Below, piece by piece: positions 4,939 through 29,426 of a DNA stretch of 30,796 nucleotides. This DNA is from a virus: positions 1 to 30,796 of the IMG/VR virus record IMGVR_UViG_3300025468_000010. The stretch is one strand, 5' to 3'. The notes under the pieces were generated by a model. It did no database searches, was not told the DNA's origin, and worked only from the letters and a program-made list of their open reading frames with translations. Positions within the stretch are counted from its first letter, which is position 1; every line of letters begins with the position of its first letter. The translations under genes and the position numbers were made by a program.

Positions 4939-6219
4939 CTACCAAAACTTTAATTTTTTGGCTGCCTTAGCAGCGGCATTTGCTGCATCCTCTGCCGCTT
5001 TTACTGATGCATTGTAAGCATCTTCGGCTGCCTTAGCAGCGGCATTTGCTGCATCTGCTGTTGCCTGTGCAAGTGAATTAGTAGCATCTGATACTGCGTT
5101 GGTAGCGGCATTGAGTGTAGATTCGGATGATGAATAAACATCGTTGGCGACATTTTCTGCTTCTTCTGCGACTTTAACTGCATCGTTCGCAACAACAATA
5201 GCCTCTTGTTGTGCTTGATCCATTTGGTCTGTCATATACATTGTTGCTTCATCAATGGAACCCCCTGCATCTAATATAGCATTAGCACCATCAATAATAG
5301 GAGATAGGTCAATATCTACATCCACATCGGCATCAATCCCAAGCAGTACCGCAGCTTTGCCATCAATGCCAATCGATACTGTGTTATCTTCGTATGTGGC
5401 GTGTGCTGAACCTTGTATGCCTACTTGCGCACCGACACTAACACCAGCTTCTGCTGAACCAGACACCCCAGCTACTTCACCCGATACACTTGCATCAGCA
5501 CCTACGCTAACACCAGCAATAGCACCAGCTTCAACTTCTGCACCGTGTTCGCCTACCGTAGCACTAGCACCAGCTTCTGCATATGCATCTGCGTGTACAC
5601 CAGCTTCTGCATTGCCGCCGGCATCGACACTAATATCTCCGATTGGTGTATCTAACCCGATATCGGTACTAGCCCCAGCACCTATATTAGCTTCTGCACT
5701 AGCACTTGTTCCAACATCTACACCAGCAGTAGCATCACTCCCATCCCAACCTGCACTAGCATTGGCATGTGCTTCAGCTTCTGCATATGCATCTGCGCTA
5801 GAATGTGCTTCTGCACTTTCGTGAAGGGTTGCACCGCCCAAATCTTGTTCTGAATGTGCTTCTGCACTAGCCCCAGCCTCAGCACTTGCTTCTGCATGTA
5901 CTTCAGCACCAGCTGCCACGCTAGAATCCGTAACCTCTGTCCCAGCATTAGCCCCCGCACTCGCTTCTGCACTAGCATTAGCGTCTGCACTAGCCCCAGC
6001 CTCTTTGTTACCAGTTGAAACGGAAGTATCTATTCCCGTATTGGCGACAACCTCTACTGTGTATTGTGGGTTGCTAACCTTAATAACTTTTGCTTTCGCA
6101 TCTTCTGTTGTTGCTTTTGCATCATCGTAATCTTGTTTCGCTTGCGCTTCATTGTCTACTGCATTATGATAATCATTTGTTGCATTATTAACATTCTGTT
6201 GTTCTTGTTCGACTGACAT
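4939..6219 (-). CDS. Ala/Ser/Glu/Gly-rich low-complexity protein, late
   Basis: A 426-residue acidic protein dominated by Ala. Residues about 1-45 are a charged helical start (EQEQQNVNNATNDYHNAV). About 65-290 is an alternating small-residue region rich in A-x-A, ASAEA, AGA and SVGA units that may form a beta-type or extended repeat. About 310-426 is an Ala/Asp/Lys helical coiled-coil region ending AAKAAKKLKFW. It has no signal peptide and no membrane helix. A late promoter (ATAAATA, 18 nt upstream) and AAAGGAGC Shine-Dalgarno precede the ATG. Composition suggests a structural or filamentous virion protein, but no family is recognised. Confidence 0.75.
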   Translation of the reverse strand: MSVEQEQQNVNNATNDYHNAVDNEAQAKQDYDDAKATTEDAKAKVIKVSNPQYTVEVVANTGIDTSVSTGNKEAGASADANASAEASAGANAGTEVTDSSVAAGAEVHAEASAEAGASAEAHSEQDLGGATLHESAEAHSSADAYAEAEAHANASAGWDGSDATAGVDVGTSASAEANIGAGASTDIGLDTPIGDISVDAGGNAEAGVHADAYAEAGASATVGEHGAEVEAGAIAGVSVGADASVSGEVAGVSGSAEAGVSVGAQVGIQGSAHATYEDNTVSIGIDGKAAVLLGIDADVDVDIDLSPIIDGANAILDAGGSIDEATMYMTDQMDQAQQEAIVVANDAVKVAEEAENVANDVYSSSESTLNAATNAVSDATNSLAQATADAANAAAKAAEDAYNASVKAAEDAANAAAKAAKKLKFW

Positions 6220-14488: not shown

Positions 14489-14986
14489 ATGATTGATTTA
14501 TACAGCAACCACACGAATCCAGAGACATTGCATGGGTATAAAGATAGGTTTAAAATCCCAGGATTCGCATATGAAGAAGCAAAACGAACAGGTAACTGGA
14601 CAGAAGCAGAACCATATATAATGAAAGATCCATCTTCTGTATTTCTGTATGCTAGGTGGGTAATAGGAGACAGATGGTCAGAAGCCGAACCTTACATCAT
14701 GAAAGATCCATATTATGCATTTCTGTATGCTAGAGATGTAATAGAAGGCAGATGGAAAGAAGCCGAGCCATATATAATGAAAGATCCATCTTCTGCATTT
14801 CTGTATGCTAGGGGGGTAATAGGAGACAGATGGTCAGAAGCCGAGCCATATATAATGAAAGACCCAGAATATGCATATTGGTATGCTAGGGGGGTAATAG
14901 GAGACAGATGGTCAGAAGCTGAACCTTACATCATGAAAGATCCATCTTCTGCATATAACTACAAAGAATTCATAAGGGCACTATAA
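14489..14986 (+). CDS. EAEPYIMKDP-repeat protein 1
   Basis: A 165-residue protein with a unique N-terminal cap (SNHTNPETLHGYKDRFKIP), five repeats built on W.EAEPYIMKDP..A..YAR.VI.(G/D)R with a 26-residue period, and a C-terminal cap (YNYKEFIRAL). Regular helix-forming repeats suggest an alpha-solenoid interaction protein. Such repeats are, as I recall, common in marine phage proteins without known function. Its stop overlaps the ATG of the next gene (TAATG), so the three paralogues are probably translationally coupled. A late promoter lies just upstream and no Shine-Dalgarno is seen. Confidence 0.75.
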   Translation: MIDLYSNHTNPETLHGYKDRFKIPGFAYEEAKRTGNWTEAEPYIMKDPSSVFLYARWVIGDRWSEAEPYIMKDPYYAFLYARDVIEGRWKEAEPYIMKDPSSAFLYARGVIGDRWSEAEPYIMKDPEYAYWYARGVIGDRWSEAEPYIMKDPSSAYNYKEFIRAL

Positions 14987-15860
14987 TGATGAATTTATAC
15001 GAATATCACACAAATCCAGAGACATTATATGGCTATAAAGATAGGTTTAAAATCCCATTATTCGCATGGGAAGAAGCAGAACGAACAGGTAACTGGACAG
15101 AAGCAGAACCATATATAATGAAAGACCCAGAATCTGCATATTGGTATGCTAGGGGGGTAATAGGAGACAGATGGTCAGAAGCCGAACCTTACATCATGAA
15201 AGATCCATATTATGCATTTCTGTATGCTAGAGATGTAATAGAAGGCAGATGGAAAGAAGCAGAACCTTACATCATGAAAGATCCATATTATGCATTTCTG
15301 TATGCTAGAGATGTAATAGAAGGCAGATGGAAAGAAGCCGAGCCATATATAATGAAAGATCCATCTTCTGCATTTCTGTATGCTAGGTGGGTAATAGGAG
15401 ACAGATGGACAGAAGCCGAACCATATATAATGAAGAATCCATTTTCTGCATATAACTACAAAGAATTCATAAGGGCACTATAATGATGAATTTATACGAA
15501 TATCACACAAATCCAGAGACATTGCATGGGTATAAAGATAGGTTTAAAATCCCAGGATTCGCATATGAAGAAGCAAAACGAACAGGTAACTGGACAGAAG
15601 CCGAACCATATATAATGAAAGATCCTACATATGCATATCTGTATGCTAGGGATATAAGAAAAAAAGGAAGATGGCCAGAAGCCGAACCATATATAATGAA
15701 AGATCCATATTCTGCATATTGGTATGCTAGATATGTAATAGAAGGCAGATTTCCAGAAGCAGAACCATATATAATGAAAGACCCAGAATATGCATATATG
15801 TATGCTAGGGATATAAGAAAAAAAGGAAGATGGTCAGAAGCAGAACCAGCGATTGCTACA
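14600..15860 (+). repeat. Array of 78-bp coding repeats across three genes
   Basis: Fifteen or so copies of a 26-codon unit (EAEPYIMKDP + YAR + VI/GRW) run through three adjacent genes. Individual units differ by few bases and some are repeated verbatim between genes, as are the caps (for example TACAAAGAATTCATAAGGGC near 14960 and 15459). This indicates recent duplication and gene conversion. Confidence 0.85.
14986..15483 (+). CDS. EAEPYIMKDP-repeat protein 2
   Basis: The same length (165 residues) and architecture as the preceding gene: cap YHTNPETLYGYKDRFKIP, five 26-residue repeats, cap YNYKEFIRAL. Two consecutive repeats (KDPYYAFLYARDVIEGRW) are identical, evidence of very recent unit duplication. 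It starts at the overlapping TAATG; a second ATG directly follows. Binding partner and role unknown. Confidence 0.75.
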   Translation: MMNLYEYHTNPETLYGYKDRFKIPLFAWEEAERTGNWTEAEPYIMKDPESAYWYARGVIGDRWSEAEPYIMKDPYYAFLYARDVIEGRWKEAEPYIMKDPYYAFLYARDVIEGRWKEAEPYIMKDPSSAFLYARWVIGDRWTEAEPYIMKNPFSAYNYKEFIRAL

Positions 15861-16115
15861 TCGCATGTGGTTATTCGGTATGCCAATGATGTGATCAATG
15901 ATGATGTAACCCACGGGTTCAAGAAACGATGGAAAGAAGCTGAACCATACATACTACGCGATGCGCAGAAATCAGCATTGTATGCAATTATGCTTAATAC
16001 CCCCTGGGAGGAAGCAGAACCGATCATACGAACATCCAACTATTGGTGGGGTAGGTACGAAAGTATGGTTGAAGATAGTAATCACACCAGCATTGATGAA
16101 CTAGAAGTAGCGTAA
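15483..16115 (+). CDS. EAEPYIMKDP-repeat protein 3, longer and diverged C-terminus
   Basis: A 210-residue protein. It has the same N-terminal cap, then units of 26-27 residues (including YARDIRKKGRW variants). Its last units are eroded (SEAEPAIATSHVV, KEAEPYILRDAQKSA, EEAEPIIRTSNYWW), and it ends in a new tail, TSIDELEVA. It keeps the EAEP core six times. It starts at TAATG overlapping gene 2. It ends 3 nt from the convergent SGNH gene, with no terminator visible between them. Confidence 0.75.
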   Translation: MMNLYEYHTNPETLHGYKDRFKIPGFAYEEAKRTGNWTEAEPYIMKDPTYAYLYARDIRKKGRWPEAEPYIMKDPYSAYWYARYVIEGRFPEAEPYIMKDPEYAYMYARDIRKKGRWSEAEPAIATSHVVIRYANDVINDDVTHGFKKRWKEAEPYILRDAQKSALYAIMLNTPWEEAEPIIRTSNYWWGRYESMVEDSNHTSIDELEVA

Positions 16116-19357: not shown

Positions 19358-22300
19358 TTATTTAAATTGGTAGGTTAAATTAACCCCTGTGTTATAATCT
19401 TCTTTGTCTGCAACTGTGGTTACTGTTACCGATGTGTCATCCGATGTGTATTTCCATCCAATACCAGCAAATATTTCAACTGAATTATTAATGCTAGTAT
19501 CAGTGCTAGTATAGTACATTGACCCATCATTGTCAACGCTTGATGGTACATCCATATTTATTTTTCCAGCAAATGCCGTTGGTTTTATTCCACCATATAG
19601 ATTGACTGCATCGTTATCCCATCCCATGACTGAATATACCGAATGAATAGTATCCACATCATTCACCAACCCAGGGTTATAATCTGTATTTGTATTCATT
19701 ATGCCCAATTGTGTCCAGAACTTGTCTTTGCGCCATACTAGATTAGTATCAACGGTAGATGATCCATTCGTTTCACCCCAAATTCCTGACATTTGAATCC
19801 AAGGACTATTATCAGCTTCGGTATAGCTAATATTTACATCAATATTATTATACCAATTAAAATTATACCCAAATGAATAGTTATTCTCATCACTCATTGC
19901 ATATGTATAGTTGTTATTTGTGATAGCTGTTAAATTGGCATATTTAATACCCCAAGATGCACCGTCGGTGTGTGATAGATGTGCTATATTGCTGTTATTT
20001 TCAGTTACTAATCCCGATAAATCAACCGTAAAATCTCGATCAAAACCATCCACTGCAATTACTGAACTTATTGCGCTTGTATCAATACCATCAAACGAAA
20101 TACCCCCACCAACCGATGTTGTGGCACCTGTTCTGCCTGTGAGACTAATGCCCAAATTGCCAATTGGTCTTGTTGCTTGGTCTAAGTCCATTAACCCTTG
20201 CCCATGTGTATTAGCATTATAGCCATTGATGTTCTTATTCGCAGTCTGTAGTAATACTTGTGCGATATTTTTACCTTGCATGTATGGCCAAAGTTGGTGA
20301 ACTATTGCAACTCCCCCAGCGACAGCAGGGGCAGCCATGCTTGTGCCACTCATGGAAGTATAACCACCACCATTCTGGACGCTATTGATGCTTGTTCCTG
20401 GTGCTAAAATATAAAAATCACTAGTCGCATATGGGTCATTGCATTGGGTAGTATAATCTTTGCATACATGTCCTGATTTAGCACCATCAATTGCTTGTGA
20501 ACTAGTGTTCCAATTGCCAACTACTAGCATCCTGCCATCCATTATAAGATCACCATTCGCATTTACTGCACTTGCAAATGTAGCAGGGTTCTGAACATAT
20601 CCTAAATCATAGTTGCCGGCACTTATTGTTAATACTAACTCACTCGGTAATACATCCCCCCAATCTTGTGGATTCTCTTGGTTGTAATAGTTAGTACCAC
20701 CATAATATACATGGTTATTAGTATAAACACCATTGCCGTGATCGGTTATGCTATTCTTATAATCATTGCTATAATTTGTATTAGCACTGATATTAGCAGC
20801 CACTATATCTTCGTGTTGTTTAGCCCAATCTAGGGCTTGCCTCGCACCAGATAGACTAATGCCATTTTGTTCACCTATCTTAGCAACGGCAATATCAGCA
20901 TCATATGCAATACCATGAGATCCTAACCCATCCTTATTTCCTGCTGCAATGCCAGCTACGTGGCTACCATGACCATTCTCATCTTCATACGGGGTGTCAT
21001 ACCCAGCATCCCATAAGTATTTGATTTTTCCAGTAAATGCTTCGTGATCTTGGTCAATGCCAGTGTCAATAATCATAATAGTTGATCCTTTTCCTGTCCA
21101 TCCCCTTGCATACGCATAGTTGGCATTTACATCAAGTACTGATCCATTGTCTGCCTCTACCGTAGAAAAATCAGCAGGATCATTGCTATTTACTACGGTT
21201 GGTGTCCCCACTGATGGGTTATTATAGTATGTATTATAATCATATGTGGTTGGATCAAAGTCCAATGATGGTGCATTCGGTTGTGTTACCGTTCCGCCAT
21301 TGCTATCAGGGGCTTCTGGCTCACTGGGTGTTGATTCTGGTGCTACCACTCTCGTAGTGACTTCTTCCGATGTTGTGATTTCTTCAGTTACTTGGGTATC
21401 AATAACACCGGTTGTAGTAGAACCATCAGTGTATGAAGTTGCACGAGTAGTTGTTACAGTAGTTGTGATAGTTGTAGTTGTTGTCCAAACATCATAATAG
21501 AACATCCATACACCATCTTCGCGGGTATCTGTATTTTCAATGGTATCAGATAAAACAGGATCACTTATGACCGTAGTAGTTGACGATGAAGTTGAATCTT
21601 CGTAACCAACCACATTTGGTGTTATCGTTTCTGACACCATTTCTTCACGGGTGCTAGTGGTGATACTTTCAGCAATAGCTTCAGAAGTATTAACACCAAC
21701 GATTTCCGTGGTTGTACTGCCATCAGTCCATATCGAAGTTCTAGTAGTAGTAACCGTGGTTGTGGTTGTAATAGGTGTTGTGGTGGTGTCGGTATACACT
21801 GTCCATACTTGTGTTACTGTGCTGCCATTTGCATCTGTGGATGTACGAGTATCAGTTACAGAGGTTGTGGTTGTAGTTGGTGTTCCATTCATTGCTGCAT
21901 CTTCGGAAATGTCTTCGTCACTGGTGCTTACGATGTTAGGAGAAACCGTTGTTGATAGCAGTGATTCATTGGTAGTAGTAGTTACTTGGTCTTCTATAGT
22001 TGATGTTGTCGTGGTGCCAATGACTTCCGATGTAGTAGTGCCATCTGAATGCGTTGTAATCCTCGTAGTTGTAGTTGTAACGGTAGTTGTGATAGGAATA
22101 GTTGTTATGTCAGTGTATATTTTCCATGTTTTGGTAATGGAATTACCATTTACATCGGTTGAGGCACGGGTTTCTTCGGTGGTAGATGATACGGTGGTTG
22201 GTGTTCCTGAAACTAAAGTGACAGCACTGGATGATGTAGTTGTTTCAGTAGGACATTGGGTATTTCGTTCTTCGGTATCAGTGCGGATAAAGTCACCTTT

Positions 22301-22549
22301 GATGCCAGTGGGTTGTCCATTGATATACTTTTCAAACCATACATCCTGGCTATATACATCTGCTGTACATAGTGGATTATCTGCTGTATCTGTTGTAGGA
22401 ACATTTGAACTTGTCATTTTCCATTGATCATAGATACCATTCCCCCATGAAATATTTCCGCTGGGTTTTGTTCCTCCACCGCCCCCACCGCATGCGGTAA
22501 GGACAAATACAGAAGTAATTACAATAGCAGTTTTTGTTTTCTTGAACAT
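19358..22549 (-). CDS. Giant lipoprotein subtilisin-like (S8) protease, autotransporter-like
   Basis: A 1063-residue protein. A lipoprotein signal (MFKKTKTAIVITSVFVLTAC) puts the lipid on Cys20, followed by a Gly run. Residues about 100-420 are Thr/Ser/Val-rich with three or four degenerate repeats (TTTVTTTR.S...DGSTTTE(I/V)(I/V)G), a stalk-like region. A peptidase S8 domain follows, with triad Asp about 495 (IIDTGID), His about 530 (NGHGSHVAG) and Ser about 737 (SGTSMAAPA). The last 250 or so residues are beta-rich with alternating patterns (NNYTYAMSDENNYSFGY, IFAGIGWKYTSDD) and end LTYQFK, like an outer-membrane barrel. Surface protease function is inferred. A weak promoter (22586-22614) precedes it; it heads a seven-gene operon. 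It is unusual on a phage. Confidence 0.85.
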   Translation of the reverse strand: MFKKTKTAIVITSVFVLTACGGGGGGTKPSGNISWGNGIYDQWKMTSSNVPTTDTADNPLCTADVYSQDVWFEKYINGQPTGIKGDFIRTDTEERNTQCPTETTTSSSAVTLVSGTPTTVSSTTEETRASTDVNGNSITKTWKIYTDITTIPITTTVTTTTTRITTHSDGTTTSEVIGTTTTSTIEDQVTTTTNESLLSTTVSPNIVSTSDEDISEDAAMNGTPTTTTTSVTDTRTSTDANGSTVTQVWTVYTDTTTTPITTTTTVTTTRTSIWTDGSTTTEIVGVNTSEAIAESITTSTREEMVSETITPNVVGYEDSTSSSTTTVISDPVLSDTIENTDTREDGVWMFYYDVWTTTTTITTTVTTTRATSYTDGSTTTGVIDTQVTEEITTSEEVTTRVVAPESTPSEPEAPDSNGGTVTQPNAPSLDFDPTTYDYNTYYNNPSVGTPTVVNSNDPADFSTVEADNGSVLDVNANYAYARGWTGKGSTIMIIDTGIDQDHEAFTGKIKYLWDAGYDTPYEDENGHGSHVAGIAAGNKDGLGSHGIAYDADIAVAKIGEQNGISLSGARQALDWAKQHEDIVAANISANTNYSNDYKNSITDHGNGVYTNNHVYYGGTNYYNQENPQDWGDVLPSELVLTISAGNYDLGYVQNPATFASAVNANGDLIMDGRMLVVGNWNTSSQAIDGAKSGHVCKDYTTQCNDPYATSDFYILAPGTSINSVQNGGGYTSMSGTSMAAPAVAGGVAIVHQLWPYMQGKNIAQVLLQTANKNINGYNANTHGQGLMDLDQATRPIGNLGISLTGRTGATTSVGGGISFDGIDTSAISSVIAVDGFDRDFTVDLSGLVTENNSNIAHLSHTDGASWGIKYANLTAITNNNYTYAMSDENNYSFGYNFNWYNNIDVNISYTEADNSPWIQMSGIWGETNGSSTVDTNLVWRKDKFWTQLGIMNTNTDYNPGLVNDVDTIHSVYSVMGWDNDAVNLYGGIKPTAFAGKINMDVPSSVDNDGSMYYTSTDTSINNSVEIFAGIGWKYTSDDTSVTVTTVADKEDYNTGVNLTYQFK

Positions 22550-26134: not shown

Positions 26135-27121
26135 TTATATTTCAAATAAATTCTCAAATGTACTATTAATATCTGTGTTAGCTACGATACCCCAATCCAA
26201 TACCCCTAGTAAGTTATCTAGCTTTTTGTCAATAATGGTATCTTCCATAAGCTGGTCATCAAATGGCAACTCTTTAAACCATTCGGGTAAGTGTGCTTCA
26301 TCGGTTGGATATCCAATACTTGTCCATCCCAATTGATTGGGTTTTAATTTACACACAATAGTTTTCATGCCATCTACAATTGGCGCACTATGGTTATCAT
26401 TATTCATTCTACGCATATTATTCCAGTTTAATGCAGCACGAACATGCCCAGGCATATTAGCCTTTCCTTGTTCCTTCTCTAAGTTGCCGTATTTTGTTAA
26501 ATTATTCACTCTTTTCGGTGTTCCTTTTTCCCAACTCTGCATATTGTGAAACTTATGCTTAAAGTCCTTGGCATGATCAATGACATGTTCTTTGGATGAT
26601 CCCGTCAATGTATCATATAATATATCGCTTAGGAAATCTTGAACTATAGGAGGTGTATCACTTCGTTTAAGATCCAATCCCATTGCTTTTACTTTGCCAG
26701 GCTTACCATCAGTGTCCAGTCGGTCGCCTTCGTTATCATACACTAATACTGCATATCGTTTTTTAGTAATAAACAACGCACTTTCTGCATTGATTTCACG
26801 ACCACATTTAATAATTTCACCCTTTTCATGGGGTGCATGATGTGCAGTAGCCATGTATTTAGGAAAGCTAATATTAACTTCATCTGCTATTTGGTCATAT
26901 AGTTGAATAGCTAAGTCTTTATTCCATTTCTGCTCTCCTGCTTCTACTGCATCTTTTAATACTGGCCATGCAGAGAAATATGCTGAATCTGTGTTATGCA
27001 CAGCAATATCATTTGCAAAAAATATCGGCTCTTTGTTTTTTATAGAAATATCATATACGTATTGAGTAGTTCGCTCTAATTTTTCTATTTTGGTTATTCG
27101 TTGTCTGTATGTTTTAACCAT
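26135..27121 (-). CDS. 43: DNA polymerase C-terminal fragment with C-intein
   Basis: A 328-residue protein. Residues 1-43 are a C-terminal split intein: block F YVYDISI and block G IFFANDIAVHN, with the terminal Asn43 followed by Thr44 as +1 residue. From Thr44 the C-extein begins TDSAYFSAWP, completing motif C (YGD/TDS) of a family B polymerase. It continues with ALFITKKRYAVLVYD (KKRY), GLDLKRSDTP, then thumb sequence, ending STFENLFEI, a likely clamp-binding tail. Joined to the upstream fragment after trans-splicing, the product would be 606 + 285 = 891 residues (T4 gp43 is 898). The upstream frame is closed, so this is a genuine separate gene. Confidence 0.92.
   Translation of the reverse strand: MVKTYRQRITKIEKLERTTQYVYDISIKNKEPIFFANDIAVHNTDSAYFSAWPVLKDAVEAGEQKWNKDLAIQLYDQIADEVNISFPKYMATAHHAPHEKGEIIKCGREINAESALFITKKRYAVLVYDNEGDRLDTDGKPGKVKAMGLDLKRSDTPPIVQDFLSDILYDTLTGSSKEHVIDHAKDFKHKFHNMQSWEKGTPKRVNNLTKYGNLEKEQGKANMPGHVRAALNWNNMRRMNNDNHSAPIVDGMKTIVCKLKPNQLGWTSIGYPTDEAHLPEWFKELPFDDQLMEDTIIDKKLDNLLGVLDWGIVANTDINSTFENLFEI
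26993..27121 (-). other. C-terminal half of split intein (43 aa)
   Basis: The region encoding residues 1-43 of the C-fragment gene, ending His42-Asn43 before Thr44. Asn cyclisation and the Thr nucleophile would complete splicing. The first 20 residues (MVKTYRQRITKIEKLERT) lead into block F. Confidence 0.9.
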
Positions 27122-27246
27122 TTAACACACTCTTCGATAATAGTTGATTCATTTTCATTATATTCTGATTCCCAAATAATTTTAGTTTCGATGCCACGCT
27201 GTTCTTTTAACGTGTCTATTTTTATTTTATCCTTGTTCCAAATGTC
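27094..27246 (-). pseudogene. Remnant of a Vsr-like homing endonuclease C-terminus
   Basis: A 50-codon open frame with no start codon, bounded by TAA at 27247-27249 and TAA at 27094-27096. It reads DIWNKDKIKIDTLKEQRG, then IETKIIWESEYNENES and IIEECVKWLKH. The pattern W..D..K...LK..G......IWE.(E/D)(Y/W) is the C-terminal core of Vsr/EDxHD-type endonucleases found in phages. It fills the gap between the two polymerase fragments and runs 28 nt into the C-intein gene. Vsr-like homing endonuclease genes between split-intein halves are known from marine 'fractured genes'. Here the catalytic N-terminal part is gone. The assignment rests on a short motif. Confidence 0.6.
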
Positions 27247-27251
27247 TTATG

Positions 27252-29426
27252 CTAAACGGATATTATTAGATCGTCCTCCAATAATTCAACAGGTGTAATT
27301 TCGTGAATGGAACCATCGCGATCAATTATAATACTATGATCTTCAGTTACCGTAACACTTTTACCATCTTCGACTGTTATTTTATACATTTGCTTATCAG
27401 TCTTATGGCGCATTACATAACTAATTTCGTTATATTCTGCAACATCGTCTACTGAGTTATATCCCAGTACTTTAGTATCTTCGTCTGTTACTATTGCATA
27501 TTCTTTGCCGTGTTCTGTTTCTACTTTGTGCGATATACTATTGTATAAATCTGCAATAGTACTATCCTCTTCCTCGAATACACGAATCATCGAATCGCCT
27601 GTAACGCTATCACCATATACAATACATTCTCCATCGTGTTTGTATTTGCCAGTCAGACATTGGTTCACATAAGCATCCATGTGTTGTGCAATAGCACGAC
27701 CAGTTAACGTGGTTGATTGACCAATTCGCTTATCAAAAAACCGACAATGCTTGTTAAGAATCGCACCATACAATGAATTCAATAGAATTTTCTTTACTAG
27801 TTGGCGTTTATCCCAGAACGCAATATCTTCTTTGGTGGTGCTTTCTCTTTTCTTTTTCTGCATAACTTTACGTTCGGCATACCATCGTTCTAATAATCCA
27901 GGTATGATGCCTTCATTTTCATATGAAAAGATGGTTCCATTTGCACTTAATGCCCAATTACTAGCTGGGTTAAATACAATATCATATAATTCAGATGCCA
28001 TATGTTTTGATGTTTTGCCATCATCCCAATCAACATCTATTTCAATATCAGATCTCTTGCCCATTACCTCGGAATATTCTAACGAACTGAATAACCCCTC
28101 CCATGCACCAGCGAATGTTACTTGCGTTTCTCCTTTCCGCTTAGTCATTTTATCTTTGATATATTTGTCAGTTTTGGTAGGTCTTAACTGTCCAATAATC
28201 GTTTCGGGTGCCATGTTCAATGACCGGATAATTGATGGATATAGACTATTGATATCTATTGATCCGATCCATTTGTGAATACCTTTTTTTGGATAAGCAA
28301 CATATGCGCCAGCCGCCTTTGTATTCATTATCTCCTCTTTGGTTTTGTTTGGGACTACAAAACCACGTTCATGTGCTTCATTAATAATTGCCTGTTCAAT
28401 CAGTGCAACCGACCCAGCAGTAGTTGGGATCAGCACAGTATTCGCATGTGCTAACTCGTTAGCTAAATCTAAAAATTTTAATTTCCTATCTAGTTTAGCT
28501 AGTAACATTGTATCTTGTAAGCTATATTCGATGAATTTTTTAAAATCCTGGTTGTACAGCTGGTCTAATGTTCCCTTGTATGGGACTTTATGTTCACCAA
28601 GTTCATATTCAGCAATTGCATCAAGTGCATACGAATGCATTTCGTGATATGTGTATTTTTGGTATAGTTGCATATAATCCATATGGATTCTGCCAACGAG
28701 ATCATATGTTTGTTGTTCCTTGCCATATCGTTCAAATGTGCGTTTTTTTGGAAGTTTGTTCCATAAGCAGAATTTCCTAGTAGCATTCTTGTTCATTATC
28801 TTGGTAACACGATTTACTTGGTATGGGATATCATATGCTTCACTGTTCCATCCTGACAGTACATCAGCATCATCAATTAGTAGGAAAAAAGCCTCAACCA
28901 TTTCTACTTCGGTATTGAATAGAATAACATCATCCTTCTCAAATCCATTAACGATATCATTTGCTTCCGTTGGTGTTAATGTAGAAGGTGCAATCACGAG
29001 ACAAATTAATTTATCTAACCAATTAAGATACAATGAAATTGCAGTTATTTGGTTGAATGGATCAGAAGTTGGGGCATACCCCCTTTCTTGGCAAAAATCT
29101 GTCTCAATATCAAAGAATGCTGTGTGTAAGGTAGGTGAATCTACATCTTTGTAATTCTCAGATAAAAAACGAAAGACAGGGTTAAAATCACTCTCATATA
29201 TTTTTTTATTGTTGTGAATTTTCAACTCTTTGTAAAAATCTGTACTAGACTTGCATTTAACATGGCTAACAGGTGTTCGGTGTGTACTTTTATATTTTCC
29301 ATTTGGGTCATCGTAATAGAATTCATATATGGCAGGAAAATCTTTTAATATCCTTTTGCCATCTATGCGTTCTGCTATCTGTATTTTATCATTATCGCGA
29401 TCATAGATCGCATCAACATACGACAC
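27252..29426 (-). CDS. 43: DNA polymerase N-terminal fragment (gp43-like) with N-intein
   Basis: A 724-residue protein starting at GTG (TAGTG overlap with the preceding stop). Family B polymerase motifs appear in order: exo I FFDIETD (near 107), exo II GWNSEAYDIPY, exo III YSLQDTMLLAKL, motif A SIDINSLYPSII and motif B KKILLNSLYGAI. The extein breaks after Asp606 in CIVYGD. Residues 607-724 are a 118-residue N-intein: Ser607 start SVTGDSMIRV (block A), TVTEDHSII (block B, with TxxH), ending LLEDDLIISV. So the catalytic YGDTDS is split and should be restored by protein trans-splicing. It replicates the phage genome with gp45 clamp and lagging-strand factors. Confidence 0.93.
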   Translation of the reverse strand: MSYVDAIYDRDNDKIQIAERIDGKRILKDFPAIYEFYYDDPNGKYKSTHRTPVSHVKCKSSTDFYKELKIHNNKKIYESDFNPVFRFLSENYKDVDSPTLHTAFFDIETDFCQERGYAPTSDPFNQITAISLYLNWLDKLICLVIAPSTLTPTEANDIVNGFEKDDVILFNTEVEMVEAFFLLIDDADVLSGWNSEAYDIPYQVNRVTKIMNKNATRKFCLWNKLPKKRTFERYGKEQQTYDLVGRIHMDYMQLYQKYTYHEMHSYALDAIAEYELGEHKVPYKGTLDQLYNQDFKKFIEYSLQDTMLLAKLDRKLKFLDLANELAHANTVLIPTTAGSVALIEQAIINEAHERGFVVPNKTKEEIMNTKAAGAYVAYPKKGIHKWIGSIDINSLYPSIIRSLNMAPETIIGQLRPTKTDKYIKDKMTKRKGETQVTFAGAWEGLFSSLEYSEVMGKRSDIEIDVDWDDGKTSKHMASELYDIVFNPASNWALSANGTIFSYENEGIIPGLLERWYAERKVMQKKKRESTTKEDIAFWDKRQLVKKILLNSLYGAILNKHCRFFDKRIGQSTTLTGRAIAQHMDAYVNQCLTGKYKHDGECIVYGDSVTGDSMIRVFEEEDSTIADLYNSISHKVETEHGKEYAIVTDEDTKVLGYNSVDDVAEYNEISYVMRHKTDKQMYKITVEDGKSVTVTEDHSIIIDRDGSIHEITPVELLEDDLIISV
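27255..27608 (-). other. N-terminal half of split intein (118 aa)
   Basis: Begins at Ser607 (AGC codon 27606-27608) immediately after YGD, ends before the TAG at 27252-27254. Contains splicing blocks A and B, with the conserved His of TEDHS. The break after block B is where endonuclease domains normally sit. Confidence 0.9.

Follow-up and report, generated by a model that had tools for sequence, protein, structure and literature searches.

An endonuclease-deletion allele of a phage DNA polymerase gene fractured by a split intein

The locus analyzed here lies in a stretch of viral DNA of 30,796 nt, positions 1 to 30,796 of the IMG/VR record IMGVR_UViG_3300025468_000010, which is referred to in its entirety as the window. 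On its minus strand, a phage family-B DNA polymerase gene (polB) is divided between two open reading frames (ORFs): the N-half (29426-27252), composed of the N-extein and the N-terminal half of a split intein (IntN), and the C-half (27121-26135), composed of the C-terminal intein half (IntC) and the C-extein. Alignments place the intein at the polymerase catalytic motif, between YGD and TDS, where intein-less relatives are contiguous, and the residues of a natural split intein are all there: Ser1, TEDH (the TxxH of block B), the C-terminal His-Asn (..VHN) and a +1 Thr. The locus thus shows the marks of a fractured gene, with the N-extein plus IntN and the IntC plus C-extein of one protein on two separate ORFs and an insertion in an active-site motif; rejoining by splicing is predicted. 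The IntN stop codon (TAG, 27254-27252) and the IntC start codon (ATG, 27121) leave a gap of exactly 130 nt. Only the last 50 codons of a free-standing homing endonuclease (HE) gene lie between the halves in the window, whereas a sister contig, L199, has the entire gene there. The features of the locus are the following:

27609..29426, minus strand: N-extein of the phage family-B DNA polymerase, 606 codons from a GTG, ending in ...IVYGD (PHROG 262 DNA polymerase, E 9e-141; Pfam DNA_pol_B and exo1)
27252..27608, minus strand: IntN half of the split intein, SVTGDS...VTEDHS...DDLIISV, plus its TAG stop (Pfam Intein_splicing E 4e-6, below cut-off; alignment with 7 related IntN)
27247..27255, minus strand: deletion scar, a fused copy of the imperfect direct repeat TTAGCA(T/G)AA, which contains the IntN stop TAG plus the TAA closing the endonuclease frame (834 nt absent by comparison with the intact L199)
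27094..27246, minus strand: start-less 50-codon HE remnant, identical in amino acids to residues 269-318 of the 318-aa L199 HE (L199 comparison; hidden Markov model [HMM] E 1.9e-8)
27130..27135, minus strand: GAAGAG, a possible weak Shine-Dalgarno sequence of the C-half within the HE remnant (no canonical match of at least 4 nt)
27094..27121, minus strand: 28-nt overlap of the HE 3' end with the start of IntC and the C-half gene (about 20-25 nt in intact relatives)
26993..27121, minus strand: IntC half of the split intein, MVKTYRQ...YVYDISIKNKEPIFFANDIAVHN, with a His-Asn end (Pfam Intein_splicing E 0.003, below cut-off; alignment)
26135..26992, minus strand: C-extein of the DNA polymerase, beginning TDSAYFSAWP (PHROG 1918/262, E 1e-46/3e-44)

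The 50-codon frame runs on the minus strand from 27246 to 27094 and has no ATG, GTG or TTG start. A first-pass annotation, made from the letters alone, had described a start-less frame of this length in a 130-nt gap, overlapping the C-intein start, as a decayed Vsr-like endonuclease; its coordinates, codon number and gap are borne out, and the overlap amounts to 28 nt. The residues of the motif that it had noted, W..D..K...LK..G......IWE, are also there (DIWNKDKIKIDTLKEQRGIETKIIWE), although the written spacings are off by about one residue. Public profiles alone were insufficient to assign the frame: a Pfam search of the 50 residues alone gave no match, and a PHROGs search gave one family at E = 0.15, uninformative by itself, which matches full-length relatives at 1e-45 to 1e-58. 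The profile check that had been proposed was positive with an HMM of the family built without the two closest homologues, which ranks the frame first (E = 1.9e-8) among the window's 814 stop-to-stop frames, ahead of a runner-up with an E of 1.3. The C-terminus of the endonuclease of Klebsiella phage KP13-7 also matches it (E 6e-5, two-sequence BLASTP test), and BLASTP against the Hef-like endonuclease of phage PA5oct found no meaningful match. The idea that an ordinary spacer happens to be open over these 50 codons, to which the missing start codon and the missing Pfam match might point, is refuted by its rank among the 814 frames and by its identity to the C-terminus of the full L199 gene, which leave it a negligible probability. 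Judged by its sequence, the frame is the C-terminal stump of a free-standing Vsr-like HE gene between the IntN and IntC halves.

The entire gene is carried by L199 (IMGVR_UViG_3300025584_000382), which comes from the same phage and is about 99% identical to the window in DNA sequence; the identity is 99.07% along 2463 nt on one side of the insert and 99.9% along 970 nt on the other. The L199 insert completes a 318-aa HE at the same site, whose last 50 residues are the window frame. In alignment, the window corresponds to L199 minus 834 nt, a single gap common to the window and the near-identical contigs L008, L244 and L245, and the two gap ends, TTAGCATAA (5' copy) and TTAGCAGAA (3' copy), bear the repeats TTAGCAtAA and TTAGCAgAA. 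The IntN stop TAG sits within this repeat and was unharmed by the deletion. At the single mismatch between the repeat copies, the window, L008 and L245 retain the 5' letter T and L244 retains the 3' letter G, which may reflect two deletions over the same repeat, one deletion with a segregated heteroduplex, or a subsequent point change, all three being compatible with the data. To the left of polB, L244 differs in another respect, since the neighbours seen in the window are replaced there (1-2650) by ORFs similar to the substrate-binding part and the two membrane parts of a TRAP transporter, for which phage-borne genes, recombination at the polB start and a chimeric contig are possible readings.

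A full-length endonuclease at the same position, which the first-pass annotation had suggested seeking in related phages, was found not only in L199 but also in L246/L247 (about 73% identical), in KP13-7, where a 325-aa ORF lies between the same two polymerase halves, and in dozens of IMG/VR contigs, the scans of which returned numerous loci where an entire ORF of about 315-320 aa separates the halves. A scan of viral contigs with a degenerate DNA pattern around the scar gave 72 matches, namely the known contigs of this phage, a further related split locus with a full HE (L342), and others without a matching intein. Scanning genome contigs with IntC gave one distant match only.

Because these contigs come from metagenome assemblies, the deletion could in principle be an assembly artefact; but four contigs from several IMG datasets, the window among them, share the junction in two variants, and independent deletions occur in at least 10 other places, so that this explanation is scarcely credible. 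The direction of change could also be reversed, the short form being ancestral and the L199 HE a new insertion completing the gene, and homing could indeed reinvade HE-less alleles. The short form, however, already contains HE codons 269-318, which continue the family-wide HE reading frame, full HEs occur across the related clade, and HE and intein distances are correlated (r = 0.785 in the near set, for 0.397 between HE and extein and 0.366 between intein and extein), all of which makes a reversal very improbable. The same correlations would suit an HE and an intein that travel together between polymerase genes.

We thus consider it almost certain that the window holds an HE-deletion ("Y-type") allele of the fractured polB, derived from an L199-like parent allele. 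Two points weigh against this interpretation: L199 is a single assembled contig of 4,445 nt, and the C-half of the window has no strong Shine-Dalgarno sequence, so that the loss of HE translation might affect the C-half if the two were coupled. The parent allele, as seen in L199, combines a split intein at the YGD/TDS site with a free-standing Vsr-like HE gene between its halves, the 3' end of which overlaps the C-half start. The deletion, which probably arose by recombination or slippage between the 9-nt imperfect repeat copies, removed 834 nt, from directly past the IntN coding end to HE codon 268, taking away the HE start, the DNA-binding part and the catalytic residues while sparing both intein halves and the C-half start. 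With these parts intact, protein trans-splicing should still be able to restore the polymerase, although the mobile element can no longer home. The post-invasion snapshot proposed at first pass thus holds insofar as the HE was lost and both intein halves were kept, but what it took for late-stage decay is a recent deletion in a near-identical genome rather than slow mutational decay.

The predicted structure of the L199 HE (mean predicted local distance difference test score, 92.5) comprises a helical N-terminal region and a C-terminal nuclease domain, and a C-x2-C...H...C pattern at its start suggests zinc binding. The alignment of the nuclease domains of 41 relatives shows 11 invariant residues (S, D, E, G, Y, W, H, N, P, W, E), all of which are present in L199, which is presumably active, while the window stump has only the last two (the W and E of WE). 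The loss of an N-terminal catalytic part, as claimed at first pass, is therefore real as a loss, but it was the N-terminal DNA-binding region plus the catalytic core that disappeared, the nuclease domain, of which the stump represents the final 50 residues, being C-terminal. As to the family, the Vsr structures 1odg, 1vsr and 1cw0 head the PDB profile search (E 0.03-0.06), a fold search of viral models gave a "putative VSR endonuclease" (template modelling [TM] score 0.82, E 1.4e-7), and Pfam MTES_1575 was matched by 33 of the 41 members (best E 1.1e-5) and DUF559 by 10. A PDB fold search placed 1vsr at rank 3 (TM 0.49, not significant), a fold search with the whole 318-aa model found nothing significant, and the match to I-Bth0305I (3r3p) in the PDB profile search was weak (E 0.45, over the C-terminal part). 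On balance, these results lean towards a Vsr-type nuclease fold for the C-terminal domain of the parent HE. We therefore name the HE Vsr-like, as first proposed, and refrain from the EDxHD label, the support for which as the precise family is weak.

Loss of the HE is recurrent. Among 71 non-redundant related intein loci, the HE is complete or almost so in about 51, 14 groups have a remnant or a trace, five are contiguous, and one has another endonuclease (PA5oct); the two weakest traces, in L257 (E 0.03) and L299 (E 0.5), were assigned by their position in addition to their sequence. On the IQ-TREE phylogeny, which took in 63 of the 71 loci and left out eight distant ones, the remnant state needs 12 changes, 11 of which are forced by well-supported branches, and these changes are losses because the remnants contain HE sequence. 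Several remnants have close full-length sisters (L262/L099, L300/L095 and L236/L196), and short repeats are often present at the deletion ends, such as CTGGCA in L236 and CCAAAAT in L097. Every remnant kept the 3' end of the HE, whereas the 5' end is kept only in L262 (26 codons) and L097 (the start codon and a few codons). The HE remnant of L097 (3228-3434) has its own ribosome-binding site and start codon, which open a 65-codon ORF fusing MPK to the HE C-terminus.

The retention of the 3' end may be explained by the overlap of the HE gene with the C-half. In intact loci, the HE stop codon lies about 20-25 nt inside the C-half gene, and in 59 of 64 related split loci a Shine-Dalgarno-like match of at least 4 nt precedes the IntC start inside HE codons; the window and L199 have no such match, only GAAGAG being there. 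Loss of the overlapping stretch would presumably abolish expression of a polymerase half that is essential, and 3'-anchored stumps would persist because the HE 3' end overlaps the C-half start. The restriction recalls the free-standing HEs of phage T4 (PMC2988022), in which overlap of an HE gene with a control sequence of an essential gene likewise limits the deletions that are tolerated; unlike in T4, where that sequence is an embedded promoter, it is here the translation start of the C-half, with a ribosome-binding site in most relatives. A different explanation would be that the stump is a retained functional mini-gene, acting as a translated peptide or as a regulator of the C-half: the part retained is invariably the 3' end, L097 could produce a 65-aa fragment from its retained ribosome-binding site and start, and the remnant frames of L236, L097, L288, L300 and L310 are still open. 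But the window frame has no start codon and is directly preceded by an in-frame TAA, L090 and L257 retain only a trace of the HE, and the overlapping C-half start already accounts for 3' retention, so that we regard a functional mini-gene as unlikely. The dN/dS ratios of the remnants were too noisy to decide, synonymous sites being saturated or the stretches too short.

At the other end of the HE gene, a TAAATA motif (TATAAATA in four loci) resembling a T4 late promoter box is located at the IntN stop in 33 of 42 loci with a full HE (2646-2681 in L199, and at the same place in L098, L180, L189, L215 and others). Downstream of it, the GGAG ribosome-binding site of the HE is enclosed by a predicted hairpin (z as low as -7.5, with none in some loci), a combination that resembles the control of I-TevI and mobE (PMC2988022). 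The window has lost this region.

Deletion of the HE may also have rejoined the two intein halves. The contiguous intein of L281 is the sister of the HE-bearing split intein of L179 (IQ-TREE support 96). L179 reads CCTAAAACGGTAAATATATGG after IntN and GAAAAGGTAAAAAAATGGATATTG before IntC, and L281 reads CCTAAAAGGTAAAAAAATGGATATTG, so that around 4982-4989 the AAAGG site and the ATG of the former C-half start are found inside one reading frame. Four contiguous loci (L281, L009, L304 and L311) are nested and scattered among the split inteins of the clade. We therefore hold that the L281 intein is probably a re-fusion of split halves, and, with less confidence, we favour a general scenario in which the fracture of split-intein genes is reversible: recurrent deletions of the HE between short repeats would leave 3'-anchored stumps when out of frame and, when in frame, a re-fused contiguous intein with a fossil ribosome-binding site and ATG, as in L281 compared with L179 and possibly in L009, L304 and L311. 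Neither statement is made more firmly because the reverse event, an insertion with a duplicated target, could also link the two forms.

Other features were observed along the way. In the window, three adjacent similar ORFs (14489-16115) are built of repeats of about 22 aa (W.EAEPYIMKDP..A..YAR), a 1063-aa ORF (19358-22549, minus strand) shows a lipoprotein-like start, Thr-rich repeats and subtilisin-like motifs (DTGID, HGSHVAG, GTSMAAP), and a 426-aa ORF (4939-6219, minus strand) contains Ala/Glu/Ser-rich repeats (SAEAGASAEAH). In Agrobacterium phage Atu_ph07 (L006 4001-6970), the annotation divides the DNA polymerase into two ORFs at 5698/5717, a position distant from the intein site, and no intein match is seen.

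The origin and the end of split inteins are an open question, on which the finding of an intact and a deleted allele in near-identical phages bears directly. With at least 11 parallel HE losses, a rule for the part that survives and a candidate re-fusion, stages of the homing cycle coexist in a single gene of a single phage group, in which a selfish element vanishes while its host gene remains split or, in at least one case, seemingly rejoins. The loci also add many new candidates to the natural split inteins, some with an endonuclease and others lacking one. In a literature search that covered few subscription papers, neither a natural re-fusion nor a pair of intact and deleted alleles at a fractured gene turned up, which argues only weakly that no such paper exists.

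Free-standing Vsr-like endonucleases have been described before in genes fractured by split inteins (Dassa 2009, as cited in PMC10448857 and PMC12350094). As far as these citations describe it, their layout of two gene halves, each with an intein half, and an endonuclease gene between them is that of L199, L246, KP13-7 and others, whereas in the window one deletion has left no more than the last 50 codons of the HE, and a near-identical phage still has the intact allele. The Pseudomonas jumbo phages PA5oct and MIJ3 (PMC6892783) likewise have a split intein in a family-B polB with an endonuclease gene between the halves, but the insertion is apparently two codons further, between YGDTD and S, and the endonuclease is annotated as Hef-like, or as HNH in the MIJ3 paper; in PA5oct (L002 6402-8084), where the Hef-like endonuclease is unrelated, a neighbouring site would thus be used by another element. 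The polB mini-intein of Salicola phage SCTP-2 occupies the same YGD/TDS site but is contiguous, in a single unbroken gene without an endonuclease. Finally, recurrent HE loss and HE-less alleles are expected by homing-cycle models with X, Y and Z alleles (PMC1654191, PMC3229294), and the HE-bearing (Z) and HE-less yet spliced (Y) alleles of these models have their counterparts here; while the models deal with introns and contiguous inteins, the element described here is trans-split, and its HE gene overlaps the start of the C-half.
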